DNA of 64,000 nucleotides from Alphaproteobacteria bacterium (GTDB lineage Bacteria > Pseudomonadota > Alphaproteobacteria > JAVJVX01). A program made the position numbers and the translations under genes. The notes beneath the pieces are model-generated. The model made no database searches. It was not told where the DNA came from and saw only the letters and a program-made list of their open reading frames with translations. The DNA lies in the NCBI GenBank assembly GCA_040220875.1, contig JAVJVX010000009.1:62001-126000 (forward strand), written 5' to 3'. Positions 3,174-24,895 of the stretch are shown here, in pieces. Position 1 is the stretch's first letter. Every line of letters starts with the position of its first letter.

Positions 3174-4451
3174 TTAGCGGCCGCCCGCTTCCAGCTGGTT
3201 CAGCGTCACTTCCTGTGCCGTCACGTCAGGCGGATTGACCCGCCAGGAGTCGTGCGACTGGAAGATCGTCGCGTGGCGACGCTGGAAATCGGCTGTCTGT
3301 CCCCAGGCCGACAGAACCGCCGAACCGCCGTCCTCGGTCTTGAGGGGCCATGACGCAAAGTTCTGGAACTTCCAGAATTCACCTTTCTTGTCATACATCT
3401 CGCCGAATATCGGGCGCCAGTTGCCGGCATCCACGTAGAAGATTTTCTTGCTGTACGGATGCTCCGCCGGCGGGATCGACTCGACCACGTAGACTTCGCG
3501 CGGTTCCCAGTTGTCTACCGGGTTCCAATAGGGCGGGTTTTCCAGATCGACACGCGGATGTTGCTGGATCGGGTCCGCGGCGTCTTCCACCCAGGTCGGC
3601 TTCAGAGAGTTGGCGACATAGAGGATCGGACGCTTTTCCAGAATCTTGTAGCTCTGGTACCAGCTTGGATGAGCGTTGAAGATCTCGATGTCGTCCTGAA
3701 GCTGATCGGTGCCGCCGATAGGATCCATCCAGGCGCCGCCCGACAGCCGCCGCACGCGACGCACGGTCCGGACATAAGCCCATACGTCGGGGAGCTTGCC
3801 CGTATCGTAGCGCAGCGTGAACGTGCCGAGTCCCCGAATATCCTGCGGATACCAGGCCCATAAGAGCAGCTTGTCGAGGATCGTGCCGTCGCCCTCGACC
3901 GGATTGTTGGTATCCCGGACGAGGCCCTTCATGTAGTAGCGCAGATATCCCCAGAACTGGCGGCGTTCGAGGCCGGTTTCGCCGTCGATCAGAAGGAAAG
4001 CGAATTTGCTGAGATCCTGCACGTCGGCCCGGGGCTGTGAATAGGTAAAGTTCCAGACGACCTTGGCCCCGCTATGCGGGTCGTTCATGTCGATGTTCGG
4101 GAACGGAACCCCGGCCTTGTAGCCCGTGACCATCTTTGTCGCCGGGTCATACTGGACACTGGCCGAGTAGCGCTCGGTAGCCTCCAACAACCGCGGATCG
4201 CGCGGGATAGGCTTCGGTGCAACCAGTGGAAGTGTCAGGTTCCACTCCCGTACCTGCCATTCAATTTTTTCCGACAGCAGGTCGGCGACGGGATATCCCT
4301 GAAAGGTTCCCTTCTTCAATTCGTCGATGTTGGAACTGGTAATCACGGTGCCGGGTGCGACTTCTGTTGTATCCTGCGCCGCTACTCCCGACGACATGCC
4401 GGCAAAAACCACCGCCAGGGTTACGGCGGCGCTGCTTTTAAGCAATTTCAT
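3174..4451 (-). CDS. DUF1329 exported protein, paralogue 1
   Basis: A 425-residue secreted protein of the DUF1329 family, related in fold to the LolA/LolB lipoprotein carriers. A clear signal peptide (KLLKSSAAVTLAVVFAG, cut after VAAQ) sends it to the periplasm or outer membrane. Family blocks such as DGETGLERRQFWGYLRYY, KLLLWAWYPQDIRGLGTF, SGGAWMDPIGGTDQL and ADFQRRHATIF are all present, so it looks intact. DUF1329 genes often sit with hydrophobic-compound catabolism or RND-type export genes; the molecular role is unknown. It stands alone here behind its own promoter and has a close paralogue at 19343-20629. Confidence 0.88.
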   Translation of the reverse strand: MKLLKSSAAVTLAVVFAGMSSGVAAQDTTEVAPGTVITSSNIDELKKGTFQGYPVADLLSEKIEWQVREWNLTLPLVAPKPIPRDPRLLEATERYSASVQYDPATKMVTGYKAGVPFPNIDMNDPHSGAKVVWNFTYSQPRADVQDLSKFAFLLIDGETGLERRQFWGYLRYYMKGLVRDTNNPVEGDGTILDKLLLWAWYPQDIRGLGTFTLRYDTGKLPDVWAYVRTVRRVRRLSGGAWMDPIGGTDQLQDDIEIFNAHPSWYQSYKILEKRPILYVANSLKPTWVEDAADPIQQHPRVDLENPPYWNPVDNWEPREVYVVESIPPAEHPYSKKIFYVDAGNWRPIFGEMYDKKGEFWKFQNFASWPLKTEDGGSAVLSAWGQTADFQRRHATIFQSHDSWRVNPPDVTAQEVTLNQLEAGGR

Positions 4452-4729: not shown

Positions 4730-5179
4730 TCAGTCCACCCAAAGGTCGCGTTTGCGATGCCAGTCTTCAATGGAAGCGTCGGGGTATTCCTCGAAATGCG
4801 CGTTAGAGGCATCTGCCGGCGGCAGCTTCACCCAGGATGCGCGGTAGTTCAGCATGATGTGAGTCTGATCCGGCGCCGCCGGCAGGTCTGTATCTATGGC
4901 AGAGGCGAAGGGATGGACGAGTTCGGGCCATCTTTCATCCCAGACCCAGAGAGCGCTGCCGCACCGCGCACAAAAATGTCGCCGCCCCATATAGACCGAA
5001 ATGTGATCGCGTCCCGTAATCTCAAGACTGCCCATGTCGCCCATCAGGTTGATCGCATATCCCCCGCCCCCGGCGGTTTTCCGGCAGATCGAACAATAGC
5101 AGCGCATATACGGATAGGGTGTGTGGGATATCACCGAGAAACGGACGGCGCCACAATGGCAAGAGCCTTCGAGTTTCAT
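4730..5179 (-). CDS. GFA / CENP-V domain zinc protein
   Basis: A 149-residue protein of the GFA (glutathione-dependent formaldehyde-activating enzyme-like) family. Zinc-binding cysteines are in the expected places: SCHCGAV near the N-terminus, CYCSICRKT near residue 30, and CARCGSALW near residue 70. The family binds zinc through these and was named for a glutathione-formaldehyde adduct reaction that few members have been shown to perform. It lies 39 bases downstream of the halohydrin dehalogenase-like gene on the same strand, so the two may be cotranscribed. Function in this setting is open. Confidence 0.88.
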   Translation of the reverse strand: MKLEGSCHCGAVRFSVISHTPYPYMRCYCSICRKTAGGGGYAINLMGDMGSLEITGRDHISVYMGRRHFCARCGSALWVWDERWPELVHPFASAIDTDLPAAPDQTHIMLNYRASWVKLPPADASNAHFEEYPDASIEDWHRKRDLWVD

Positions 5180-5218: not shown

Positions 5219-5893
5219 TTACTGCACCCATCCTCCAGCGAATGGAATGGCCTGGCCAATCAGGAAATTACATTCGTCGCTGGCCAGAAAGACGGCCAGC
5301 ATGGCGTCTTCCTCGGGCGTGCCAAGGCGCCGGGCCGGGACGTCCTTCAGCCGCGCCTTGAAGGCGTCGGTCTCCTGGTAGTCCTTCGGAAAATAGACCG
5401 GATTATCGACGAAATTCTGTGCGATGGCGTTGATCTGCACGTTATGGCGCGCGACCTCGACCGCGACCGACTTCACATAGCCGAGTTGCGCACCCCGTGC
5501 CGCAGCATAGGCCGCCGCGCGGGGTTGGCCACGCATCGGAGAGGCGCTGCCCATGACCACGATCTTGCCCGTCTGGCGCTCGGTCATCTGCGGCAGCACC
5601 GCCCGAACCAGCCCGTGCAAGGGCATTACCATGGCGCGGAACAGGCCCTCGAAAGTGGCGTCATCCACGTCAACCGTGGGAACGCGCGGGTTGACGGCGG
5701 CGAGATTGGCGATCAACACGTCGATTTCGCCAGCCTGCTCGACCAGTGCATCGGCCGCGCCCTCGCCGGTCAGATCGCCGTCATCAGCCAGAACAGAGGC
5801 CCCCTCCTTCGCAAAGGCGGCCGTCAGGGCCGGGCCCATAAATGTCTCCGACTGGGTAATGAGCACCTTCTTGCCATTTAGACGTCCGCTCAT
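5219..5893 (-). CDS. Halohydrin dehalogenase-like SDR-fold protein
   Basis: A 224-residue protein with the short-chain dehydrogenase fold but not the SDR active site. In place of the glycine-rich NAD loop it has T13-x4-F18-x-G20 (TQSETFMG), and in place of Ser-Tyr-Lys it has S116-x12-Y129-x3-R133. Those are exactly the two signatures used to define halohydrin dehalogenases (HheA-HheG type), which convert vicinal haloalcohols to epoxides and halide without a cofactor. The segment after strand six (AIAQNFVDNPVYFP) resembles the halide-binding loop of that family. I start at the ATG at 5893, which has GGGAGC upstream; longer reading frames overlap the divergent reductase. An ordinary SDR is the alternative but lacks the catalytic Lys. 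Confidence 0.82.
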   Translation of the reverse strand: MSGRLNGKKVLITQSETFMGPALTAAFAKEGASVLADDGDLTGEGAADALVEQAGEIDVLIANLAAVNPRVPTVDVDDATFEGLFRAMVMPLHGLVRAVLPQMTERQTGKIVVMGSASPMRGQPRAAAYAAARGAQLGYVKSVAVEVARHNVQINAIAQNFVDNPVYFPKDYQETDAFKARLKDVPARRLGTPEEDAMLAVFLASDECNFLIGQAIPFAGGWVQ

Positions 5894-5994: not shown

Positions 5995-6975
5995 ATGAAA
6001 TACCGTGAGCTTGGCCAAAACGGCCCGCAGGTTTCAGCCATCGGTCTCGGATGCATGGGCATGGTCGGCTGGTACGGGACCCGTGACGACAAGGAGGCCC
6101 GCGCGACCCTCGATCTGGCAATCGACCGGGGCGTCAATTTTCTCGATACCGCCGATATCTACCAGGGGGGCGAAAATGAAAAATTCGTCGCGGCCAGCAT
6201 AGCGGGCAAGCGCGACAAGGTGTTCATCGCGACCAAGTTCGGCTTTCAGCGGTCGGAAGATGGCACGCTTACGTTCAACGGTCGGCCGGATTATCTCCGG
6301 GCTGCCTGCGAAGCCAGCCTCAAGCGGCTCGGGATCGACACGATCGACCTTTACTACGCTCATCGCGTGGATCCTGACGTGGCGATAGAGGAAACGGTCG
6401 GCGAGATGTCCCGCCTGAAGGAAGAGGGCAAGATTCGCCATCTCGGCCTGTCCGAGGCAAGCGCGACCTCGATTCGCAGGGCCCAGGCGACCCATCCCAT
6501 CGCGGCGCTGCAAAGCGAATATTCCTTGTGGACCCGCGACCCCGAGGGCGAGATCCTGGACACCTGCCGCGAACTGGGAATCGCCTTCGTCCCCTACAGC
6601 CCGCTGGGTCGCGGCTTCCTTACGGGAAAGCTGGCGATCGAGGATCTGCCGGAAGATGATAACCGGCGCCAGAACCCTCGTTTTGAGGCCGAGAACGCAG
6701 CGCGGAACATGGAATTGGTGCGCCGGATTCGCGCCCTGGCCGAGCAGAAGAACTGCACGGCGCCGCAACTGGCGCTCGCCTGGCTTCTGGCGCAGGGAGA
6801 CGACATCATCTCCATTCCGGGAACCAAGAAGCGGAAATATCTCGAGGAAAACCTGGCGGCACTCGATGTCACGCTGACCGCGGAGGATCTCGCCCGGATC
6901 GATCGGGACCTGCCGCCCGGCAGTGCGGCGGGCGAGCGTTATCCGCCCGCCATGATGGAAAAGGTTGGCCACTAA
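5995..6975 (+). CDS. Aldo/keto reductase
   Basis: A 326-residue NADPH-dependent aldo/keto reductase of the YajO/AKR13-like group. The catalytic tetrad is visible: Asp and Tyr in [11 protein letters not shown], Lys in IATKFGF and His in DLYYAHRVD. The C-terminal cofactor pocket [14 protein letters not shown] is present. GGACGGAGAA precedes the ATG. It is divergent from the halohydrin dehalogenase-like gene, with about 100 bases between them. Substrate is probably a small aldehyde or ketone; the pairing with a possible epoxide-forming enzyme is suggestive but not proof of a pathway. Confidence 0.92.
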
Positions 6976-13198: not shown

Positions 13199-13894
13199 AT
13201 GCCGGGACCAGACCAACAGATAGAAGCCAGGCTTCGCCAGGCGGCGCGCGCGCTGGGGCGTCACGGCCTGGCTCATGCCTATGGCCATTGCAGTATCCGG
13301 CTGGACGCGGAGAGCTTCCTCGTGTGCGCGCCCCGGCCCATGGGCCTGATCAGGCCGGGGGAAAATGGCACGGTCGTTTCCTTATCGGGCCCGCTCCCCG
13401 AGGGCGTTCTGGGCGAAGTCCGGGTGCACCGTGAAATCTACCGCCGACGCCCCGGGATCGGCGGCATCTGCCGCAGTATGCCCCCCCATGTGATGAGCCT
13501 TTCCGTGCTGCAGCGCACACCCCGGCCGCGCCATGGGTTCGGGACTTACTTCGCTCCCGCCCCGGCCCTTTGGGACGATCCGCAACTCCTTCGTGATGAC
13601 GCCGCGGCGGAACGGCTGGCCAAAACCCTTGGCGAGGGTGCGGCGGTCATGATGCGCGGTAACGGATGCGTTGTGGCGGGGGAAACGCTGGAGGAAGCGG
13701 TTGTCCTTACCTGGTATCTCGAAGATGCCGCCCGGGTGGAGCTCGACGTCCTCAAGGCGGGGATGAGCGAAAGCGCGCCCGTGCTTTCTGCCGAGGACGC
13801 CCTGAAGCGGGCAACGCGGGACGGCCGAATCATCGAACGGATGTGGGACTATCTCGTTGCGGGCGACCCGGAGACCCGGGATGAGACGCTTTAG
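13199..13894 (+). CDS. Class II aldolase/adducin-fold protein lacking the zinc histidines
   Basis: A 231-residue protein with the class II aldolase fold (AHAYGHCSIRLD; EVRVHREIYRRRPGIGGI; VVAGETLEEAV). The residues that hold zinc in fuculose-phosphate aldolase are replaced: the HxH pair reads R92-S-M94, and the third His in the usual NHG segment reads N155 (RGNGCVVAG). The acidic residue of the active site is kept as E73, but the GN phosphate-loop motif reads GH. So it is either a metal-free enzyme with another chemistry or a binding protein. GGAGGGG precedes the ATG. Its 3' end overlaps that of the facing dioxygenase gene by four bases. Confidence 0.8.
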   Translation: MPGPDQQIEARLRQAARALGRHGLAHAYGHCSIRLDAESFLVCAPRPMGLIRPGENGTVVSLSGPLPEGVLGEVRVHREIYRRRPGIGGICRSMPPHVMSLSVLQRTPRPRHGFGTYFAPAPALWDDPQLLRDDAAAERLAKTLGEGAAVMMRGNGCVVAGETLEEAVVLTWYLEDAARVELDVLKAGMSESAPVLSAEDALKRATRDGRIIERMWDYLVAGDPETRDETL

Positions 13895-14742
13895 GAAAAT
13901 TCCTTGATATTGGGGGTCGCCCCCCACATGCAGAAGGACGAGCCTGCCAAAGGAAACTGGCGGGGGACATAATTCTCATCGGTGATCAAACGAACACCGT
14001 GTGAATATTCCCAGATCAACTCGTCAGGACCATAGAAATAAAGGAACATCGCCGTCGAGGTGGGATGCCGGCCCGGCCCGAATGCGATCGGCACCTGGTG
14101 CGATTGCAGGAAATACCAGGACCGCATGATGTCGTCGATGGACCCGACCTGGAAGTTCACGTGCTGGATGCCCGGACGGTCTGTCGGGAACAGCGCCACC
14201 TTGTGGTGCACCTCATCGATACGAAGGAGCGCTGCCTCCCCGATCCGGTCGCTGACCCGCGCGTTGAAAAGCCCTGTCCAAAAGGCTTCGTCACGCCGGG
14301 CATCGGTGGTATTCAGCCCGACATGGCCAAACTGTGTAATACCGCTATCCCGGCTCGGGAAAAAACGACGGCCTGAATGATATGGGCGAACCACAAGATC
14401 GATCGAGTTACCGGTCGGGTCGCGGAAGTTCAGGAAGACGTCCACGCGGCGCTTTTGGGCTTCGGCGTCGCTGCCCATTGTGTATGGGATATGGTTGAGC
14501 TTCAGTTGCTCGGCCGCGGACTGAAGCGCGCGCTCATTAACCAGTTCGAAGCCGACAGTATGGTCCCGCGGATCGCCCTCGAAGATACAGACGTTGTGAT
14601 CCCGATCATCGCCCCTGAGATAGGCGCCGTCCTCCCCATCATCCACCAACTCCAGTCCGACGATTTCGGTCAGAAACCGAACGCTTTCCGACCGGCTGGA
14701 AGTGCCGATTCGGACATACCGGATGTCATGAAGCTCGATCAT
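13891..14742 (-). CDS. Two-domain VOC extradiol-type ring-cleavage dioxygenase
   Basis: A 283-residue type I extradiol dioxygenase-like protein made of two VOC repeats. The Fe(II) triad of the C-terminal catalytic domain is complete: H140 (FGHVGLN), H194 (IQHVNFQV) and E245 (LIWEYSHG). The N-terminal repeat has lost metal ligands, as usual. Enzymes of this family cleave catechol-like or biphenyl-diol rings next to a hydroxyl. The ATG at 14742 is taken from alignment of the first VOC strand (HDIRYVRIGTS). It is the most downstream of a leftward oxygenase group, 115 bases after the PhyH gene. Confidence 0.87.
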   Translation of the reverse strand: MIELHDIRYVRIGTSSRSESVRFLTEIVGLELVDDGEDGAYLRGDDRDHNVCIFEGDPRDHTVGFELVNERALQSAAEQLKLNHIPYTMGSDAEAQKRRVDVFLNFRDPTGNSIDLVVRPYHSGRRFFPSRDSGITQFGHVGLNTTDARRDEAFWTGLFNARVSDRIGEAALLRIDEVHHKVALFPTDRPGIQHVNFQVGSIDDIMRSWYFLQSHQVPIAFGPGRHPTSTAMFLYFYGPDELIWEYSHGVRLITDENYVPRQFPLAGSSFCMWGATPNIKEFS

Positions 14743-14857
14743 CGGCTGTACTCCGCTCCGAAGGCCTGATCGTCCCGGCGGGAGCCGGGCCGCACACACT
14801 TGGATACCAAATTCTGGTCAGGAGAAAGGCGCTCCCCGGTCGCCACCCCGGACGTTA

Positions 14858-15823
14858 TCACGGATAGACGGGCGGAAAAATATCCGGATCTCCGGCGACC
14901 GAGGCCCCCTTTTTGATTTTCGGGGGCGTGTTGACCGGCGGGGCCAGCGGGCGCGGGTAATAGACAGCATCATCGCCACAGTACCGGATGGTGATCGCGC
15001 GACGTTGCTGGGAGGGTGAGGCGTTGCCGCCGGCGCCGTGCACGGTTCCGATATGATGAACCACCAGGTCCCCCGGCTCGACATCAAAATGTACCAGATC
15101 GAACTCGGCCTCGTGTCCATCGATATCGGGCAGCGCCGCCGCCGGATCGTCCGGGCTGGTCATGTTGCTGATGAAATAATTGACCTTGTATTCCGTGCCG
15201 TCCCGGTGGGAGCCGCGCAGGTAGCGAACGGTCCCGGTTTCCAGGGTCTCGGGATCGCAGGGCACGCGAATCGCTATTCGCTGGCTTCCGGCCAGATGGT
15301 CGTAACCCAGATCCTGATGCCAGGCGGTCTTTTCACGGGTCAGCGGCGGCTTGACCAGGATCTGGTCGCCATCCCCGCACAGGAAAACCCGTCTCGATTC
15401 CATCAGATGGGCGGCAATCTCCGGCAGCGGGGATCGGGTCGCCAGTTCGCGGACCCGCTCATCCTGTCGCCAGGAACCCGTGATTGACCAGAAATGGCCT
15501 CGCTTTTCCTTGTCGATTTCGGCAACGCGTTCGTCCAGAAGCACCGTGCCCCGCATATAGCCCTCGTTGCCCCATTCCTCGGTCGAATTCCGCCACAAAT
15601 CCCCCGCGACGAAACCCGATATGTCTTCGGGCCGGTCGGCAAGCAGCCCAAGGTTGGTGAGACTGACGGCGGACGCTGGTGGCGTTGCCATCAGATCGGC
15701 AATCGCGGCCGCAAGTTCCCGAACACAGGAAAGGTCCAGAATTCCACGAAGGCACACGACTCCGTCGCGCTTGTAGGTCTCGATTTCCTCACCAGTGATC
15801 GGACGCAAGAGCTGCCTTTTCAC
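14858..15823 (-). CDS. Phytanoyl-CoA dioxygenase (PhyH) family Fe(II)/2-oxoglutarate oxygenase
   Basis: A 321-residue PhyH-family protein. The iron facial triad is present as H169-x-D171 (TAWHQDLGY) and H262 (GTVHGAGGN), with Arg residues in RRAITIRY available for 2-oxoglutarate. Family members hydroxylate CoA esters, ectoine and many natural products, coupling oxidation of 2-oxoglutarate to hydroxylation. It follows the Rieske oxygenase gene by 15 bases, so the two are almost certainly cotranscribed. The substrate is unknown, and a role in the same pathway as the Rieske enzyme is inferred from the operon only. Confidence 0.9.
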   Translation of the reverse strand: MKRQLLRPITGEEIETYKRDGVVCLRGILDLSCVRELAAAIADLMATPPASAVSLTNLGLLADRPEDISGFVAGDLWRNSTEEWGNEGYMRGTVLLDERVAEIDKEKRGHFWSITGSWRQDERVRELATRSPLPEIAAHLMESRRVFLCGDGDQILVKPPLTREKTAWHQDLGYDHLAGSQRIAIRVPCDPETLETGTVRYLRGSHRDGTEYKVNYFISNMTSPDDPAAALPDIDGHEAEFDLVHFDVEPGDLVVHHIGTVHGAGGNASPSQQRRAITIRYCGDDAVYYPRPLAPPVNTPPKIKKGASVAGDPDIFPPVYP

Positions 15824-15838
15824 GCCAATTCCTCCACC

Positions 15839-17065
15839 TTATCCAGAGATGAAGTGCTCGACCATCTTGTGAGAATGGCGAATGAGAACTTCCTCATCAT
15901 GTAGCCAGAAGACGTCCTTCGCGCCGGAGCGCAACGCTTCTTGCGTAATTTCCATTGTCGCCGAGTCTTCGAGCCAGTTGTTAAGCTGCATTTTTTCGGC
16001 CCAGACTTCGGCGAACATTTCACGGTTGGTTCGCGACTGGTGGATATAGCTGGTGCCTTCCCACATGATTGTGTTCACGTCGATGGGATAGAAATTATGG
16101 GTGAAGCACGTCCCCTCCCCGATATGCACCATGAAATTGGGGAAGAAAGCTGAAAGCTCGAAGGCGAAGTCCGCCCGGGCCTCCGGATTGACCTGTGGCG
16201 GCAGCATGACCTTGACCGGACGTGACTGACCCAGGGAATTTTCCGTAACCGCGTTGGCGATCTTGCCGACATCGGTCACCTTCATGGAGGCCGGATCGAG
16301 AAAGACCTCGGATGTGCGGTGCGGCCCGAAGAACTTTATGCCCTCCAGCGTCGTACCGAAAGCCTCGGGCCAAAGATACCGATGAAGATAGGGCACGTGG
16401 TAGGATTCGGAAAAGGCGTCGAGGGCCACCTTCCAGTTACAGCGAACGACCTGCTGGTAGCGGTAGACATTCGTCAGCTCGCCATAAGGATAGCCCGACA
16501 GATGCTCACCTAGCCCGCCGAGGAAGGTCTTCAGATCCTGGTCCGGTTTTGGGTCCAGATTGATGAAGATAAAGCCTTCCCAGACGTCACAAGCAATGGG
16601 CGTAAGCCCGTTCTCGGCGCGTGAAAAGCATGGCGGGAAATGATCTTCCTCCGGGACGTGAACCAGCGTGCCCGCGGTGTCATACACCCAGCCGTGGAAG
16701 CGGCATTCGAACTTGCCGCCCCGCACATTACCGAAGGTATCGAATCCGGTTTCCGATATGGGTTTGTTCCCGCGATGGGAACAGATGTTGTGAAAGGCCT
16801 TCAGGCTGCCGTCCTTGTTCCGCATGATCACAGCGGAAGCTTCGGCAAAATCCAGACGCCGGATCTTGAAGTCGTGGGCGTTCGGAATCTCCTCGACCCG
16901 GCCGACCTGCAGCCATGTCTTCTTGAATATTTTTTCGACTTCGTCGCGAAAGTGGTCTTCCGAGGTAAACACCGAGGTCGGTAGCGGATCGGTGCCCAGC
17001 TCGGGATACCTCTCGGCCCAGCGCAGACGGCGCGCCTCTTTTGCCGGCGACATGACGTCAGACAT
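15839..17065 (-). CDS. Rieske non-heme iron oxygenase, alpha subunit
   Basis: A 408-residue catalytic subunit of a Rieske oxygenase. The [2Fe-2S] ligands are C95/H97 (CSHRG) and C121/H124 (CRFHGW), with a spacing about six residues longer than in classic ring dioxygenases. The mononuclear iron site is in NWKVALDAFSESYHVPYLH: H223 and H228, with E220 where naphthalene-type enzymes have the bridging Asp. A bridging Glu is known from carnitine/betaine-type oxygenases. No ferredoxin, reductase or beta subunit gene is in the window, so electron partners lie elsewhere. GGGAGGAA precedes the ATG. Confidence 0.92.
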   Translation of the reverse strand: MSDVMSPAKEARRLRWAERYPELGTDPLPTSVFTSEDHFRDEVEKIFKKTWLQVGRVEEIPNAHDFKIRRLDFAEASAVIMRNKDGSLKAFHNICSHRGNKPISETGFDTFGNVRGGKFECRFHGWVYDTAGTLVHVPEEDHFPPCFSRAENGLTPIACDVWEGFIFINLDPKPDQDLKTFLGGLGEHLSGYPYGELTNVYRYQQVVRCNWKVALDAFSESYHVPYLHRYLWPEAFGTTLEGIKFFGPHRTSEVFLDPASMKVTDVGKIANAVTENSLGQSRPVKVMLPPQVNPEARADFAFELSAFFPNFMVHIGEGTCFTHNFYPIDVNTIMWEGTSYIHQSRTNREMFAEVWAEKMQLNNWLEDSATMEITQEALRSGAKDVFWLHDEEVLIRHSHKMVEHFISG

Positions 17066-17154
17066 GCGAGTTCCTCCCTTATGAAGACGGCCGTTGACCG
17101 GTTCTTGCGGCCAAGTCTAGCCGCCGGAAGGGGGGCGGAAAAGGCCCCGGGGCC

Positions 17155-17769
17155 CTATTTCGAGGACAATGCGGCTGCGCCAGGCGACTGGGGGGCCCGC
17201 GATCGGGCCTCTCCGCCGGTTTCCGGACCACCCGAAAGACGCTGAAAAGCAAGGGTTACCTCGCCCAATTCGATGCCCCATTTGCTGACCCTCGCGCGGT
17301 TGAGGAGCACACCATCCGGCTGAAGGAACATCCAATCATCAAATTGCACCCGCCAGGTTCCCTCCCCCACCTTGAGATCGAGGGTGTAGCGCCAGTTGAG
17401 CGCATTGCCGAAGATTTCTCCCTTTGCGGTCCCGACGATGTCGCTCGCCTGGCCCTCATACCGGCCCCCGCCGAGATTCCGGATATGCCAGACCCGGCGA
17501 TCCAGCTCGCCGTCGGCATAGCGGAAATTTTCGTCGAGAGTGAGCAAATCGCCCCCTACAGTGCCCGTGATATCCACCACGAATTGTCGGCGGACCTTCC
17601 CGAACCTGTCTTCAAACAGTCCGTAAGCGCGTGTCTGGCCCTCGAAATATTCCTCGAGCCGGAATTCGATATCCGTTCTGGCCACGTCGGCCGGTTTCCT
17701 GCTCATGCATCCACCCAAGGCTAGTCCCAGCATTGACCCCATCAGGACGAAAATTGTCAGACCCCGCAT
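17155..17769 (-). CDS. DUF3833 family lipoprotein
   Basis: A 204-residue predicted lipoprotein. The signal sequence ends in a lipobox with the Cys at about residue 21 (LGLALGGC). The body (EYFEGQTRAYGLFEDRFGK, then a beta-rich middle with WRVQFDDWMFLQPDG) matches DUF3833, function unknown. It is first in the leftward oxygenase group, 89 bases ahead of the Rieske gene; whether they share a transcript is unclear. The extreme C-terminus is low-complexity (Gly/Ala/Ser). Confidence 0.85.
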   Translation of the reverse strand: MRGLTIFVLMGSMLGLALGGCMSRKPADVARTDIEFRLEEYFEGQTRAYGLFEDRFGKVRRQFVVDITGTVGGDLLTLDENFRYADGELDRRVWHIRNLGGGRYEGQASDIVGTAKGEIFGNALNWRYTLDLKVGEGTWRVQFDDWMFLQPDGVLLNRARVSKWGIELGEVTLAFQRLSGGPETGGEARSRAPQSPGAAALSSK

Positions 17770-17934
17770 GCTGCCTCCTTTTCCCGGTATACGTAGGCGT
17801 GACGCCGGCGGTTCAGTCAGAGCCCAGGCAGGCTAATCCGGGGGCGCACTCCGACCGAATCCACGCTAGACTGCGCGCCGGGCGTCGCCGGCGAGGGCAC
17901 GGCCCAAAGGAAGAGACGGGCAAGGAGATCATCG

Positions 17935-18582
17935 ATGCCACTTCAGATAGACCGGATCAGCCCCCGCAAGACCGCGGTCATTGTGGTCGATATGCAACAC
18001 GACTTCGTGGCACCGGGAGCCCCGCTGGAAACTCCGATGGGCAGGGACCTGCTGCCCAACCTCACGCGACTCCTCGATCACGCCCGACAGCGTGGCATGA
18101 CGGTGATCTATACTGCCCACGTCCACCGCGAGGACGGGAGCGATATGGGGCTTTACGGGGAGATCTGGGAGCCGATCGGCAAGCACAAGGCTCTCGTGGA
18201 CGAGAAACCTGGCGTCGAAATCTACGACCCGGTAGCACCCCAGCCTGGCGAACTCACGGTCAAGAAACACCGCTACAGCGCCTTTTACGGCACGGACCTC
18301 GATATGATCCTGCGGGAGAAAAAAATCGAAAACGTTGCCATCACCGGTGTTACGACGGAAAACTGCTGCATGTCGACGGCGCGCGATGCAATGTTCCACA
18401 ATTATCGCGTTGCCTTCATCTCGGACGCCACCGGCACATTCGATTACCCCGATGTTGGTTTCGGGGCCATTCCCGCAACGGAGGTGCACCGGGTGTGCCT
18501 CGGAATTCTCGGCGTTTCCACTGCCCATGTGATGACGACCGAAGATTTCATCCACAAAAGCCTGGCCAATGAACCGGCCTGA
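17935..18582 (+). CDS. Cysteine hydrolase, isochorismatase family
   Basis: A 215-residue isochorismatase-like hydrolase. The Asp-Lys-Cys catalytic residues are recognisable: D19 (VIVVDMQHDF), K111 (VKKHRYSAF) and C144 (TTENCCMSTARDA), with the usual cis-peptide stretch before the Cys. Family members hydrolyse C-N bonds in nicotinamide, N-carbamoyl compounds, biuret or peroxyureidoacrylate. The next gene, DUF1989, is 31 bases downstream; this pair recurs around urea/carbamoyl-type nitrogen metabolism, so an amide or ureido substrate is the best guess, not a demonstrated one. Confidence 0.9.
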   Translation: MPLQIDRISPRKTAVIVVDMQHDFVAPGAPLETPMGRDLLPNLTRLLDHARQRGMTVIYTAHVHREDGSDMGLYGEIWEPIGKHKALVDEKPGVEIYDPVAPQPGELTVKKHRYSAFYGTDLDMILREKKIENVAITGVTTENCCMSTARDAMFHNYRVAFISDATGTFDYPDVGFGAIPATEVHRVCLGILGVSTAHVMTTEDFIHKSLANEPA

Positions 18583-18613
18583 CGACATCGACCAAGAAAA
18601 GGAAGGAGAAACA

Positions 18614-19231
18614 ATGGGGAACACACCGGGAGAGCTTCTCAAAAGCGAGACGATCCAGCCGCATCACTTTGGTACAGGCATCGTCCGGAAGGGTGAAACG
18701 CTGCGGATCGTTGACGTCGAGGGACAGCAGGTCGCCGATTTCGTCACCATCAAGTTGAACGACCCCAGCGAATACCTCGACTGTATCTATACCAATTGGC
18801 GGTTGGGGCGGTGGAAGTGGAATGAAGGCGATGCCATCTACACCAACCATATGAATCCGCTCTGGACCATTACCGACGACCGTCTCGGGAATCACTATAC
18901 TGGTGGGGGCTTCTGCTCGCGCGATGCGCGGCGTCTTTATTACAAGGATGACCAGAAAGGGTGCCGGGACACCCTTGAGGATGCCTTCAAGGCGGAGGGT
19001 ATCGATCCGCGCCTGTTGCAATCGGTCTCCTGCTTTAACGTGTTCATGACGGTCGATTACACGCCGGAGGGAGAATGGGTGATTCGGGAGCCCATTACGG
19101 AAGCGGGGGATTATATCGACCTGCGGGCGGAGATGGACCTGATGTGGATGGTTTCCGTGTGCTACTGGCCTGAGGTTGTCAATGGCAGCCGCCATACGCC
19201 GTTGCGTTTCGAGACCTATGCGGCCGGCTGA
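18614..19231 (+). CDS. DUF1989 (urea carboxylase-associated) family protein
   Basis: A 205-residue DUF1989 protein. Family landmarks include LRIVDVEGQQVADFVT, the Cys-rich GGGFCSRDARR segment and FNVFMTVDYTPEGEW. Two DUF1989 proteins together form carboxyguanidine deaminase in guanidine degraders, and others accompany urea carboxylase; here there is only one copy and no carboxylase. I chose the ATG at 18614 because GGAAGGAG lies just before it; an ATG 15 codons earlier overlaps the cysteine hydrolase gene. It ends at a strong terminator. Confidence 0.87.
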   Translation: MGNTPGELLKSETIQPHHFGTGIVRKGETLRIVDVEGQQVADFVTIKLNDPSEYLDCIYTNWRLGRWKWNEGDAIYTNHMNPLWTITDDRLGNHYTGGGFCSRDARRLYYKDDQKGCRDTLEDAFKAEGIDPRLLQSVSCFNVFMTVDYTPEGEWVIREPITEAGDYIDLRAEMDLMWMVSVCYWPEVVNGSRHTPLRFETYAAG

Positions 19232-19265
19232 GCCCCGCCCCACCCGGCAAAGAGGATAAAAAAAG

Positions 19266-19295
19266 AAGCCCGGCCGGGAGCGCGGCCGGGCTTTT
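19266..19295. terminator. Bidirectional intrinsic terminator
   Basis: AAGCCCGGCCG and CGGCCGGGCTT form a perfect 11-pair stem around a six-base loop, flanked by an A run on the left and TTTT on the right. It separates the rightward DUF1989 gene from the leftward DUF1329 operon and can serve both. Confidence 0.9.
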
Positions 19296-19342
19296 AATGG
19301 CGGGTCCGGCGCGGTGCCGGACCCCCTGGGAGCTACCGTGGC

Positions 19343-20629
19343 CTAGTTGGCCTGGTCTTCAAGCTGTTGCAGCGTCACATCCGTCTCGGTCACATCGGAC
19401 GGGTTGGTCCGGATGCTGTCGTGAAGATTCCATATCGTCGCATGGCGACGCTGGAAATCCACGACCTGACCCCAGGCCGATGCCATGGCCGGATAACCGT
19501 CCTCCGCCTCGAACTCGAAGGCTGCGGCGTGGCAGTGCTTCCAGTACGCGCCGGCCTTGTCATACATATCGGCATAGACGGGGCGCCAGTTGATGGCATC
19601 CACGTAGAATTCTTTCTTGCTGTAGGGATGTTCCTGCGGCGGGATGGATTCGACGACCCAGACGTCGCGCGGCTCCCAGCGGTCCTTGACATTCCAGAAT
19701 GGTGCCTCGGTCAGATCCACCCGCGGGAATTGCGCGTCCTCCGATGAAGCGTCGGGTTTCCAGGTCGGGCGGCGGCTGTTGAATACGGCAAGGACCTTGC
19801 GCTTGCCCATCAATTTGAAGTCCTGATACCAGTTGGGATGGGCGTTAAAGCATTCGATGTCGTCATTGAGCTGATCCGTGCCGCCAATCGGATCGAACCA
19901 TGCGCCGCCCGAGAGGCGCCGGATACGGCGAACGGTTCGGATATAGGCCCAGGTGTCAGGCAGCTTGCCTGTGTTATAGCGCAGCGTGAATGTTCCGAGG
20001 CCGCGGATGTCCTGCGGATACCAGGCCCACAAGAGAAGCTTGTCGATAACTGTCCCGTCGCCGCGTGTCGGATTGTCGATATCGGCGATCTGCCCGGTCA
20101 TCCAGTAGCGGACATAGCCCCAGTACTGCTTGCGCTCGAGCCCTGTATCACCATCAATCAGGAGATAGGCGAACTTGTTGAAATCCTGCACGTCCGAGTG
20201 CGGATGGCCGTAAATGTAATTCCAGATTATCTTCAGCGCCAGGTGCTCGCTGTTCTCATCGACATCCGGAAACGGTACACCCGTCTTGTAATTGACAAGA
20301 TTGCGGGTCATCGGGTCGAGCTTGATCGTATCCTTATAGCGCTCGGTCGCTTCCATGAGGCGCGCGTCGCGATTGGGCGCGATCGGGTCCTGAACCTCGA
20401 CCTCGAGGCCCCATTCGCGAATTTGCCAATCGACCTTGTCGGTCAGCATGTCACCTATCTTTGCGCCGTGAAAAGTCATCTGGCGGGCGCAATCGAGATT
20501 CTGGCTGTTGATGAGCGTGCCGGGCTTCATGACCTGGCCTTCGCAATTTTCCTGTGCCTGGGCACTGCCGCCGCCGGCCCACAGTGCGACGGCAACCAGA
20601 GCCGCCAGGCTTATCCGTACAGGTTTCAT
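19343..20629 (-). CDS. DUF1329 exported protein, paralogue 2
   Basis: A 428-residue secreted DUF1329 protein with a signal peptide (PVRISLAALVAVALWAGG, cut near AQAQ). It is clearly paralogous to the copy at 3174-4451: stretches such as KLLLWAWYPQDIRGLGTF, DPIGGTDQL and ESIPPxEHPYSKK are shared almost unchanged. The fold is related to LolA/LolB, pointing to handling of a hydrophobic ligand at the outer membrane; this is inference. It is the third gene of a leftward unit after the FAH and cyclase genes, though 156 bases separate it from the cyclase gene, and a candidate regulatory half-site lies in that gap. Confidence 0.88.
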   Translation of the reverse strand: MKPVRISLAALVAVALWAGGGSAQAQENCEGQVMKPGTLINSQNLDCARQMTFHGAKIGDMLTDKVDWQIREWGLEVEVQDPIAPNRDARLMEATERYKDTIKLDPMTRNLVNYKTGVPFPDVDENSEHLALKIIWNYIYGHPHSDVQDFNKFAYLLIDGDTGLERKQYWGYVRYWMTGQIADIDNPTRGDGTVIDKLLLWAWYPQDIRGLGTFTLRYNTGKLPDTWAYIRTVRRIRRLSGGAWFDPIGGTDQLNDDIECFNAHPNWYQDFKLMGKRKVLAVFNSRRPTWKPDASSEDAQFPRVDLTEAPFWNVKDRWEPRDVWVVESIPPQEHPYSKKEFYVDAINWRPVYADMYDKAGAYWKHCHAAAFEFEAEDGYPAMASAWGQVVDFQRRHATIWNLHDSIRTNPSDVTETDVTLQQLEDQAN

Positions 20630-20785
20630 GTTGACCCCTCCTCCAAGTTGATAAGTTTTTTTCCCTCATTTGCGCCAGGTCTCGGCAGGGCTGTGCCTGA
20701 CGCCATGTAAACTCGAATATTATTTGGTCGTTCATTCAAAACATAGGGCCCGAATTCGGGTTTGGGCAGCCTCACAAGGAAATGA

Positions 20786-21562
20786 TTACTCGTCGAAAAT
20801 TGCCACGGCCCGGGTCCACCCGGCCGAAGCCCCTTTGATTTTGCAGGGAAAACAAGCAACCGTGTATCCGGTCCCCGGCAAATCATCGAGGTTGCCGAGC
20901 TTCTCGAGGTGGCAGTACCCGATGTCCCGGCCGACCCGGTGCCCTTCCCAGATAATGCTGGGATCCTGGGTTTCCTCCCAGCGCTTCTTGGTGTGCAGAA
21001 ACGGGGCATCCCAGCTCCACGCATCGATCCCGGTCACGCGGACCCCGCGCTCGAGCAGATAGAGCGTGGCTTCGCGGCCCATACCGCAACCGGCATGAAT
21101 GTAGTCGTCGTCGCCATAGGCCGAGCTCGCCCGAGTGTTAATGAGGACGATGTCGTAGGGTTCCAGCGTATGTCCGATCCGGGCGAGTTCTTTCTCGACG
21201 TCTTCCGCCGTCACGACGTAGCCGTCCGGGAAATTCCGGAAGTCCAGTTTCACGCCACGATTGAAGCACCATTCCAGCGGCACCTCATCGATCGTCATGG
21301 CCTTTTTGCCCTTATCCATCGTCGAGGCGTAATGGTACGGCGCATCCAGATGGGTCCCGTTATGGGTCATGAGGCGAATCCATTCGAGCGCCCACCCTTC
21401 TCCATCGGGCAGATCGCTCTCCTTTACCCCGGGGAAGAAACCCGCGACATCCTTGGCCGTGTCCTTGTGGGTCACGTATTCGATTTTCGGCCCGTATCCG
21501 GGGGGGTCCGAAACGATGTCGTCTTCAAGGCGAACGGAGATGTCTACGAAACGTCGGGCCAT
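20786..21562 (-). CDS. Cyclase family protein (kynurenine formamidase-like metal hydrolase)
   Basis: A 258-residue protein of the putative cyclase/KynB superfamily. The metal site HxGTHxDxPxH is complete as THNGTHLDAPYHY around residues 66-78, and the later His/Glu region is present. Members hydrolyse arylformamides, isatin and cyclic or lactone-type substrates. It lies 53 bases downstream of the FAH gene on the same strand. With a ring oxygenase next door, hydrolysis of a ring-opened or cyclic intermediate is a reasonable inference. Confidence 0.9.
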   Translation of the reverse strand: MARRFVDISVRLEDDIVSDPPGYGPKIEYVTHKDTAKDVAGFFPGVKESDLPDGEGWALEWIRLMTHNGTHLDAPYHYASTMDKGKKAMTIDEVPLEWCFNRGVKLDFRNFPDGYVVTAEDVEKELARIGHTLEPYDIVLINTRASSAYGDDDYIHAGCGMGREATLYLLERGVRVTGIDAWSWDAPFLHTKKRWEETQDPSIIWEGHRVGRDIGYCHLEKLGNLDDLPGTGYTVACFPCKIKGASAGWTRAVAIFDE

Positions 21563-21615
21563 GGCTTTCTGTCCCCTGTCAAATTTAAATTACCCAACCG
21601 GTTGATCGCGCCGCC

Positions 21616-22623
21616 CTAGCTGTCTAGGCGGACGATCCTATTTCTGAGAATGCCGATTCCTTCGACTTCCAGCTCGATAACGTCGCCCGGGCTGAGCGAA
21701 CGCTCCATCTCAAGTCCGCAGCCGCCGCCCACGGTGCCGGAGCCAATGAATTCTCCAGGATAGAGCGTTTCGGACCGCGACATGATTTCGATCGCGTCCT
21801 CGAAGCGCCAGTAGGCCGAACCACTATTGCCGCGCGACCATTCCTCGCCATTCACCCGGGCGATCATGGTCAGATTATAGGGATCCCCGATCTCATCGGC
21901 TGTCACAACACACGGGCCGATTATATTGCCTGTATCAAAATCCTTTGATTTGGTCGGCCCAAGCTGCCCTGGCATCTCTTCCGACTGGACATCGCGGGCA
22001 CTGATGTCATTGAAAATGCTGTAGCCGAAAATATGGCTGGCCGCGTCCTTCCTGCTTACATCTCGGACTCGCTTGCCGATAAAGCAGCCGAATTCCAACT
22101 CATAATCGAGATTTTCGGCGTAGTACGGCCAGATGATGTCGGTATCCGAACCGATCACAGAAAACCGGTTGGCCTTGTAATAGATCGGTCGCTTGTACCA
22201 GACCTCGGGAATGCCAAAGAGCCCGGCTTTCTCGAAGCGGCGCAACGCCTCTTCCGGATCGGGTTCGGCCCGGGCTCGAGTGCGTCGCAGGACGGCGAAG
22301 GCCTGTTTCAGGTGATCCTCGAAAAACAGCCCGTCCCGGATCTGGGCCGGCACCGGCACGGGCGACATCAGCGAAAAGCCGTTATTCGCACTTACCACGA
22401 GATCCTCGTCTCCGGTATTTGCGGCCCAGTCGGAAGTCTTGCGGGCAAGGTCGAGCCCTGCTTCGCCGGCATCCATGAGCGCCTGCATGGAGGTGAGCAC
22501 CGGAGTAGCGTCGCCATCGCGCGCAAGTGCGGCCCTGGCCAGGTCCACCGCCCGGACCCCGTCTTCCAGCCAGGCGCCGAGCCGAGGCACGCCGTCGGTC
22601 AGACGAAAGGTGATCAATTTCAT
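21616..22623 (-). CDS. Fumarylacetoacetate hydrolase family protein
   Basis: A 335-residue FAH-superfamily enzyme. The C-terminal catalytic half has the acidic metal-binding set in LDYELEFGCFIG and FNDISARDVQ, followed by GPTKSKDFDTGNIIGP. FAH enzymes hydrolyse C-C bonds in diketo acids, or hydrate and decarboxylate meta-cleavage products. The N-terminal 110 residues form the variable cap domain. It is the first gene of the leftward catabolic unit, transcribed from a promoter in the intergenic region shared with the flavin monooxygenase. Confidence 0.92.
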   Translation of the reverse strand: MKLITFRLTDGVPRLGAWLEDGVRAVDLARAALARDGDATPVLTSMQALMDAGEAGLDLARKTSDWAANTGDEDLVVSANNGFSLMSPVPVPAQIRDGLFFEDHLKQAFAVLRRTRARAEPDPEEALRRFEKAGLFGIPEVWYKRPIYYKANRFSVIGSDTDIIWPYYAENLDYELEFGCFIGKRVRDVSRKDAASHIFGYSIFNDISARDVQSEEMPGQLGPTKSKDFDTGNIIGPCVVTADEIGDPYNLTMIARVNGEEWSRGNSGSAYWRFEDAIEIMSRSETLYPGEFIGSGTVGGGCGLEMERSLSPGDVIELEVEGIGILRNRIVRLDS

Positions 22624-22757
22624 TTCTGGCGGTGTCTCCCCTCATCGGCTGGCCGGCTGGCCCGGGCCTTGTCCCGACGCGATAACGCGCCCCGGTATCG
22701 TGACTGTCCGGCCTCGCTGATTCTGACAATGCGGGCGGGTGCGACGCGACAGGCCGT

Positions 22758-22786
22758 ATTCTAACGGTGAGAATAAATTGTTTAAA
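22758..22786 (-). promoter_or_regulatory. Predicted promoter of the FAH-cyclase-DUF1329 unit
   Basis: On the minus strand TTTAAA and TAGAAT are 17 bases apart, about 135 bases upstream of the FAH start. This lies in the 388-base divergent region 22624-23011, the most AT-rich stretch nearby. That region contains no credible gene. Confidence 0.5.
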
Positions 22787-22820
22787 GAGCTAAATCGGTT
22801 ATAGTTTACAGGATTTTATG

Positions 22821-22849
22821 TTGAAACAGTCGCGCAAGATATATACGAT
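22821..22849 (+). promoter_or_regulatory. Predicted promoter of the LLM monooxygenase gene
   Basis: TTGAAA and TACGAT are 17 bases apart on the plus strand, leaving a leader of about 155 bases before the monooxygenase ATG. The -10 overlaps a palindrome that could be a repressor site. Confidence 0.5.
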
Positions 22850-22855
22850 CGTTCA
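22842..22855. promoter_or_regulatory. Candidate TetR-type operator
   Basis: TATACGATCGTTCA is an imperfect palindrome with perfect core ACGATCGT, similar in shape to TGAACGnnCGTTCA sites bound by many TetR regulators. It covers the predicted -10 of the monooxygenase promoter. A TGAACGA half-site recurs on the minus strand near 20728-20737 before DUF1329 paralogue 2. A TetR gene lies 1.3 kb away. Binding is untested. Confidence 0.4.
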
Positions 22856-23011
22856 AATTATTTCGGGGGTGTCCTCACGGGGGTCGTTCCCGGGCGGGAG
22901 TAAAACCAAGGGGCAGGAACTTTTCAGGCACTGCTGAACTTCAAGGGCCGGGTGCACGTCGCTGCGGCCAATGCGAAGTCCCCAAAAATCATTGCGGAGG
23001 GATAAACCGAA

Positions 23012-24121
23012 ATGCCTTTGGATCAAGCGACGTTCAACTTCTCGGCCAGCGCCTACGATACTCTCGGCAAAACCGATGACGAACGCTACCAGACCTTCAT
23101 CGACGTGACGGAAGCCGGGTACAGGCTGGGGTTCGAAACCGTATGGATGGCCGAGCACAACTTTACCGACTACTACCCCATCCCAAGTCCACTTCTCGCT
23201 TACGCCTACGTCGCCTCGCGTTTCCCGGGCCTGGGCCTCGGCACCTGCGTCCTGGTCACGCCCTGGTACGACCCGATCCGGTTGGCGTCGGAAATCTCGA
23301 TGCTCACGGTGCTCACGGGCGCGCCGCTTCATCTCGGCGTCGGGCGGGGCACGGCACCGATCGAGTACGAGATCTATCGTGCTGACATGCGGAAATCGGT
23401 CACCCTGTTCCGCGAAGGCATGGAAGTGATCCAGCTTGCCCTGAAGGGTGAGCCCTTCACGTATGACGGCGAGGAATACAAGGTCTCCAAGCCGATCCAG
23501 ATCAGACCCCACCCTCACCCGGAGCTCGTTAATTTCTACGGCGCGGTCATCGACCCCAAGAGCACCGAGAAAGTCGCCAATCTCGGCTTCAACATGCTGG
23601 GATCGTCATGGTTTCCCTTCGAGGTGGGCCAGTCGAACACTGCGAATTTCGACAACAAGGTGGCCGAACTTGGTGGCAGTCCGCGCCAGAAGGCGGTCTG
23701 GGTCAACACGTTGATCCGCGACAGCGACGAGGAGGCCGTAGAGGCCGGCCGCCATCATGTCTCGGAATTCTTCAAGAACAGCGTCGCTCATTACGAGCAC
23801 GGCGGCTGGGATACCAGCGACTATCTCCAGGACGATCCCAATTTTGCCGCTACCGGAAAGATTTTCTCGGGCCTCAAGGGATTCGCCGACATCAATTCCG
23901 AGGCCAACGAGAAATTCATCCAGCGCCAGTTCATCGGCTCGCCCCAGACGGTCCGTGAGAGGGTGCAAAAATATATCGACATCGGCTATGACCGGATCAT
24001 CGTGCAGGTCGACCTGCATAGCGTCTCGCGAGAGGATCAGATCCGCAGCCTCACCCGGTTCGCTGAGGAAGTGGCGCCCGAGTTCAGCACCACCTTCCAG
24101 CGGCGCATGGCGGCGGTCTAG
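23012..24121 (+). CDS. LLM class flavin-dependent oxidoreductase (luciferase-like monooxygenase)
   Basis: A 369-residue protein of the bacterial luciferase-like superfamily. The TIM barrel begins with a typical strand, and characteristic segments include GFETVWMAEHNF, LGTCVLVTPWYDPIRLASE and HLGVGRGTAPIEYE. Such enzymes use reduced FMN (or F420) to monooxygenate small molecules, including Baeyer-Villiger reactions. A flavin reductase is not adjacent. GGAGGG precedes the ATG. It is divergent from the FAH unit and convergent with the TetR gene, so it is most likely the oxygenase of that module. Confidence 0.93.
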   Translation: MPLDQATFNFSASAYDTLGKTDDERYQTFIDVTEAGYRLGFETVWMAEHNFTDYYPIPSPLLAYAYVASRFPGLGLGTCVLVTPWYDPIRLASEISMLTVLTGAPLHLGVGRGTAPIEYEIYRADMRKSVTLFREGMEVIQLALKGEPFTYDGEEYKVSKPIQIRPHPHPELVNFYGAVIDPKSTEKVANLGFNMLGSSWFPFEVGQSNTANFDNKVAELGGSPRQKAVWVNTLIRDSDEEAVEAGRHHVSEFFKNSVAHYEHGGWDTSDYLQDDPNFAATGKIFSGLKGFADINSEANEKFIQRQFIGSPQTVRERVQKYIDIGYDRIIVQVDLHSVSREDQIRSLTRFAEEVAPEFSTTFQRRMAAV

Positions 24122-24157
24122 GGACCGCCCTCGCCTCTCAGGGGGAAGGCGCGGCGT

Positions 24158-24895
24158 CTACTCGGCCGCGTCTTCTCTTACCCTGCCGGCCGGCGATCCG
24201 GGATCATTTTTTGAATCGGAATCTGCTGTCCCCGTCGTCTCCGCATCCGCGGACTCCGGCTGACACAGGGCCTTAAATCCGCCGGTGACAAACGGCACCA
24301 TGGCCTTGTGAATTGCCTCCAGATCGGCCGATTCGCAGAGGCCCTTCGACAACGCCTCGATCCGCCCTGTCTCGGCCGCGCTGAGGATCATGGCGCCCAG
24401 CAGGAAATGAAACCCCCAGTATACATTCCGCGGATCGCAGTCCGGCAGCGTCCGCCGGATTTCATCGATGAACTCTTCCGCGACCTCGTCGAACTGCGGG
24501 CTGATAATGTTGGCCTGCCAGCTTGGCGAATTCGCGACCTGGGCGATCAGGCGGGCGTAGTTTTTCCAGCCCCGTCCACCGGTCCGGCTTCGGGTCAGGA
24601 ACGGGCCGACGAACGCGTCGATGATGTTTTCGATCGGGATCGGCCCGCCACCGGCCCTGGCGCGGGAACCTGCCAACGCCGCGCGGCGCTCTTCGCGCAT
24701 GATGCTGACCCGGCGCTCGATCGTGGCCTGAAAAAGGTTCTGCTTGCGCCCGAAATAGTAATTGGGCAGCGCCAGCTCGACTTTGGCCTTGGAGGTGATC
24801 TCCCGGATCGAGACGCCGTAATACCCCCGCTCGGCGAAGAGGGCCTCGGCCGCATCCAGGATTTTCTCGCGCGTGGTTTTGCTTGCTCGCCCCAT
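24158..24895 (-). CDS. TetR/AcrR family transcriptional regulator
   Basis: A 245-residue TetR regulator. The N-terminal helix-turn-helix spans about residues 8-55 (ILDAAEALFAERGYYGVSIREI ending in LPNYYFGRKQNLF). The large C-terminal ligand-binding domain resembles the TetR_C_30/CerR-like group, and the tail is acidic and low-complexity. It converges on the monooxygenase gene with 36 bases between stops, and is the only dedicated regulator in the catabolic block. It is the natural candidate to bind the palindrome in 22624-23011; its own upstream region shows no such site. Confidence 0.92.
   Translation of the reverse strand: MGRASKTTREKILDAAEALFAERGYYGVSIREITSKAKVELALPNYYFGRKQNLFQATIERRVSIMREERRAALAGSRARAGGGPIPIENIIDAFVGPFLTRSRTGGRGWKNYARLIAQVANSPSWQANIISPQFDEVAEEFIDEIRRTLPDCDPRNVYWGFHFLLGAMILSAAETGRIEALSKGLCESADLEAIHKAMVPFVTGGFKALCQPESADAETTGTADSDSKNDPGSPAGRVREDAAE

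Follow-up and report, generated by a model that had tools for sequence, protein, structure and literature searches.

The predicted HHDH locus

The window analysed here, meaning the whole 64,000-nucleotide stretch, carries on its minus strand a gene predicted to encode a halohydrin dehalogenase (HHDH), whose product we refer to as P0001. The reading frame is complete, running from an ATG at 5893 to a TAA at 5221-5219, and translation of the plus strand of 5219-5893 gives no sensible protein. A mechanically called version of the same frame is longer and begins at a TTG at 6121; this start was rejected, as it would run into the divergent aldo/keto reductase gene. Judged from the sequence, we prefer the ATG at 5893, which matches the point where homology to relatives begins and has a ribosome-binding-like GGGAG upstream. 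In base composition the gene does not stand out from the rest of the window, and a promoter scan found nothing. The features of the locus are collected in Table 1.

Table 1 Features of the predicted HHDH gene and its immediate neighbours, in window coordinates.
Feature	Position	Strand	Basis
Predicted halohydrin dehalogenase gene, 224 aa (P0001), B/D branch	5219..5893	-	Motifs, PDB matches, ML trees, AlphaFold model, Foldseek
Motif 1, T-Q-S-E-T-F-M-G, codons 13-20	5834..5857	-	Translation; definition from PMC4989007, PMC11976700
Motif 2, S-x12-Y-x3-R, predicted catalytic triad, codons 116-133	5495..5548	-	Translation; invariant in 17-sequence alignment
AQNFVDNP loop, codons 158-165, at the site of the SDR PG nicotinamide loop; letters as in HheD2	5399..5422	-	Alignment columns
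GFA-family (glutathione-dependent formaldehyde-activating-like) gene	4730..5179	-	Pfam PF04828; intergenic sequence
Aldo/keto reductase, divergently transcribed neighbour	5995..6975	+	Pfam PF00248

Pfam assigns P0001 to adh_short_C2, and none of the NCBIfam models listed for it reaches its curated cut-off. Routine annotation would therefore label the protein a plain SDR, as the preliminary description of this DNA had anticipated. HHDH genes such as this one escape routine annotation.

Diagnostic motifs

HHDHs are recognised by the motif pair T-x4-F/Y-x-G and S-x12-Y-x3-R, at positions where ordinary SDRs carry T-G/A-x3-G/A-x-G and S-x10-14-Y-x3-K (PMC4989007, PMC11976700). A search with this pair earlier brought to light 37 new HHDHs, from which a chosen set of 19 proved active (PMC4989007). 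P0001 contains both motifs, the first as T13QSETFMG20 and the second as S116, Y129 and R133. The classical NAD(P) SDR signatures TGxxxGxG and YxxxK are both broken, with Q14, F18 and R133 standing in for Gly, Gly and Lys. The preliminary description had placed T13, F18, G20, S116, Y129 and R133 exactly where we find them, leaving unstated that the gene lies on the minus strand, and had taken the motif pair as the mark that separates HHDHs from cofactor-dependent SDRs, which agrees with both the published definitions (PMC4989007, PMC11976700) and our own alignment of 44 rows. In that alignment Arg occupies column 133 in all HHDH-clade rows but two degenerate paralogues, and Lys at column 133 together with Gly at column 14 is found in 12 of the 12 NAD-type SDR rows. 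G20, S116, Y129 and R133 are invariant in a narrower alignment of 17 sequences. The pattern across the 44 rows indicates that the HHDH motifs in P0001 are no chance matches, and both motifs occur together in no other SDR locus among those taken from the source genome.

Relatives and position within the family

The best solved relatives of P0001 over its full length are 8xxb (53% identity), 7b73 (52%) and 4zd6 (49%). Going by their structure titles, 8xxb is a mutant of HheD8 and 4zd6 is HheB; 7b73 is HheD2 (PMC9629495). HheD2, from a gammaproteobacterium, shares with P0001 both motifs, an identical AQNFVDNP segment and a similar length and predicted fold, and HheD8, seen in 8xxb as an engineered triple mutant, has the same motifs and the same fold. 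HheB of Corynebacterium sp. N-1074 likewise has both motifs and a shortened cofactor region; however, it carries Tyr where P0001 has Phe in motif 1, and its halide loop reads AQHWTQNK rather than AQNFVDNP. The likeness to HheC (1pwx) and other A/C-type HHDHs extends to the motifs and the Ser-Tyr-Arg triad, but HheC is just 27-31% identical, and the A/C types carry about 20 extra residues after strand 2.

A maximum-likelihood (ML) tree of 44 sequences, comprising HHDHs and NAD-type SDRs, splits the two groups with support of 100/99 and places P0001 within the HHDH clade, in a B+D branch with HheB and HheD2 (99/96). The position inside this branch is less sharply drawn. A focused tree built from 20 sequences, none of them of type E, puts P0001 outside both the D cluster of HheD2 and HheD8 (94/97) and the B-side cluster (88/94), and its placement outside both has support of 59/20 in the best focused tree. 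Grouping P0001 with B (p 0.43) or with D (p 0.20) is rejected in neither case by the AU test, and we assign the protein to no subtype.

Predicted structure and enzyme identity

The AlphaFold model of P0001, built as a monomer only, is confident (pLDDT 92.3, pTM 0.90). When the model is searched with Foldseek, the first nine places all go to HheD2, HheD8 or HheB (E 1e-25 to 1e-27), and the best NAD-dependent SDR match, at E 5e-19, stands six to eight orders of magnitude behind the HHDHs. The segment NAIAQNFVDNP is identical in P0001 and HheD2, at a place where dehydrogenases carry a P-G pair. In addition, P0001 is missing about 20 residues after strand 2, as are HheB and HheD2, and these residues are present in SDRs and A/C-type HHDHs. 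By analogy with known HHDH structures (PMC4989007), the replacement of the PG loop and the shortening of the strand-2 region would accompany a lost NAD site, and they lend indirect support to a putative halide pocket in its stead.

Taken with the motifs, these data make it very probable that the gene encodes a cofactor-independent HHDH of the branch holding HheB and HheD, and nothing at the sequence level speaks against this call. The competing reading, that P0001 belongs to the NAD(P)-dependent SDR dehydrogenases and merely looks like an HHDH, draws on the placement of the protein in the generic SDR superfamily by Pfam and NCBIfam, but we consider it exceedingly improbable, as P0001 lacks the glycine-rich loop, the Lys and the PG motif, its cofactor region is shortened, and both the tree and the predicted structure group it with HHDHs. 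On motifs, tree and structure together we reject a plain NAD-dependent SDR. The enzyme class proposed in the preliminary description is thus backed by sequence (motifs and PDB matches), tree and predicted structure, with P0001 lying apart from the NAD-type SDRs in the tree and its predicted fold nearer to HheD2, HheD8 and HheB than to any NAD-dependent SDR.

P0001 is an ordinary, fairly divergent addition to a characterised family, being about 50% identical to characterised members, and it leaves the picture of that family unchanged. HHDHs are valued biocatalysts, and each member at this distance enlarges the usable set.

Proposed mechanism

In HHDH chemistry the Ser binds the substrate hydroxyl, the Tyr acts as base, the Arg tunes the Tyr, and the resulting alkoxide displaces the halide (PMC4989007). 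In known HHDHs motif 1, which takes over the position of the NAD glycine loop, lines the nucleophile/halide pocket. If P0001 works as the characterised enzymes do, Ser116 would position the substrate hydroxyl, and Tyr129, its pKa brought down by Arg133, would take the hydroxyl proton. The alkoxide would then displace the vicinal halide to give an epoxide, and the Thr13/Phe18/Gly20 motif and the AQNFVDNP loop would together line the predicted pocket that holds the halide. In the reverse direction, epoxides would be opened by halide or other small anions.

Genomic context and physiological role

The GFA-family gene lies 39 nt downstream of the HHDH gene on the same strand, with an AGGAGG ahead of its start. 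Given the short gap and the good ribosome-binding site, co-transcription of the two genes is probable, and the GFA gene is probably an operon partner of the HHDH gene. No GFA gene is found in the neighbourhoods of HHDH relatives at 12 loci of the B/D branch, and across these loci little is held in common beyond the HHDH gene itself, except between closely related genomes. One could picture P0001 as a separate subtype beside B and D that is co-transcribed with the GFA gene and whose role is the glutathione-dependent processing of epoxides or haloalcohols, not haloalkane use; we think this combined proposal quite improbable.

At two of the related loci, a P450-like gene with a small SnoaL-like gene adjoining it (L055:6590-8232 and L059:15149-16829, in two genomes, named by a look at the sequence only) lies no more than about 6 kb from the HHDH gene. 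The window itself contains two DUF1329 proteins, one at 3174-4451 that adjoins the HHDH-GFA pair and one at 19343-20629 within a catabolic stretch. This stretch, at 13199-24895, encodes a Rieske oxygenase, a PhyH protein, an extradiol-type VOC protein, a class II aldolase, a cyclase, an FAA hydrolase, a luciferase-like monooxygenase and a TetR protein, a compact gene set of the ring-cleavage type, and nothing links it to the HHDH gene.

The preliminary description had also suggested possible haloalkane use, and this part of it is not supported. A role for the enzyme as one step in breaking down haloalkanes or haloalcohols accords with the chemistry of the family, and a limonene-1,2-epoxide-hydrolase-like protein encoded on another contig of the source genome (G000:C5; L065:1477-1869, minus strand), which aligns to solved enzymes of that type over nearly its whole length, could hydrolyse the epoxide. 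However, no epoxide hydrolase was found adjacent to the HHDH gene, the source genome has no member of PF06441, the N-terminal family of epoxide hydrolases, and none of the eight alpha/beta hydrolases scanned, six of which belong to the genome's ten best, reaches the cut-off for a haloalkane dehalogenase; the best match is in each case meta-cleavage/HsaD-like or enol-lactonase-like, and all fall well short of cut-offs. Read by eye, the nucleophile elbow of the readable hydrolases (L068 left out) holds Ser, Cys or another residue and in no case Asp. With no pathway partner beside the gene, a single HHDH in the genome, PF06441 absent and the limonene-epoxide-hydrolase-like protein encoded elsewhere, a haloalkane pathway is therefore conjecture, made no firmer by an HHDH neighbourhood that is not conserved, and we regard such a role as rather unlikely.

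A natural job other than haloalkane catabolism, acting on epoxides or haloalcohols of other origin or using another small anion, strikes us as an evenly balanced prospect. The detoxification of endogenous or environmental epoxides would be one example. HHDHs take many anions, and the genes of a dehalogenation pathway are absent beside this one, but nothing specific points to any alternative substrate. In the literature we found one caveat on the physiological role of HHDHs, in a 2016 review, which allows that other functions are possible because only two of the known HHDH genes have an epoxide hydrolase as operon partner (PMC4989007).

Distribution and motif variants

Of 385 genomes sampled evenly across the class, 20 (the source genome included) have a match at E <= 1e-35. 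B/D-branch proteins occur in nine of these 20, again counting the source genome, and the others that were placed in the tree group with A/C-type HHDHs. The family is thus scattered in this class, not rare.

Two related genomes carry tandem pairs of HHDH-like genes (L043:532-2055, plus strand; L044:1498-3042, minus strand). One copy in each pair has Ser-Tyr-Arg, and its neighbour has Gln for Arg and a motif 1 without the aromatic residue; the Gln-bearing copy is perhaps a degenerate partner subunit. Motif 1 varies in further HHDH-clade proteins as well. Trp stands at the aromatic position in L048:1396-2139 (plus strand), L052:1234-2094 (plus strand) likewise has no standard motif 1, and Ile replaces Thr in L043:1294-2055 (plus strand). 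The published motif search would, going by these sequences, overlook all three variants.
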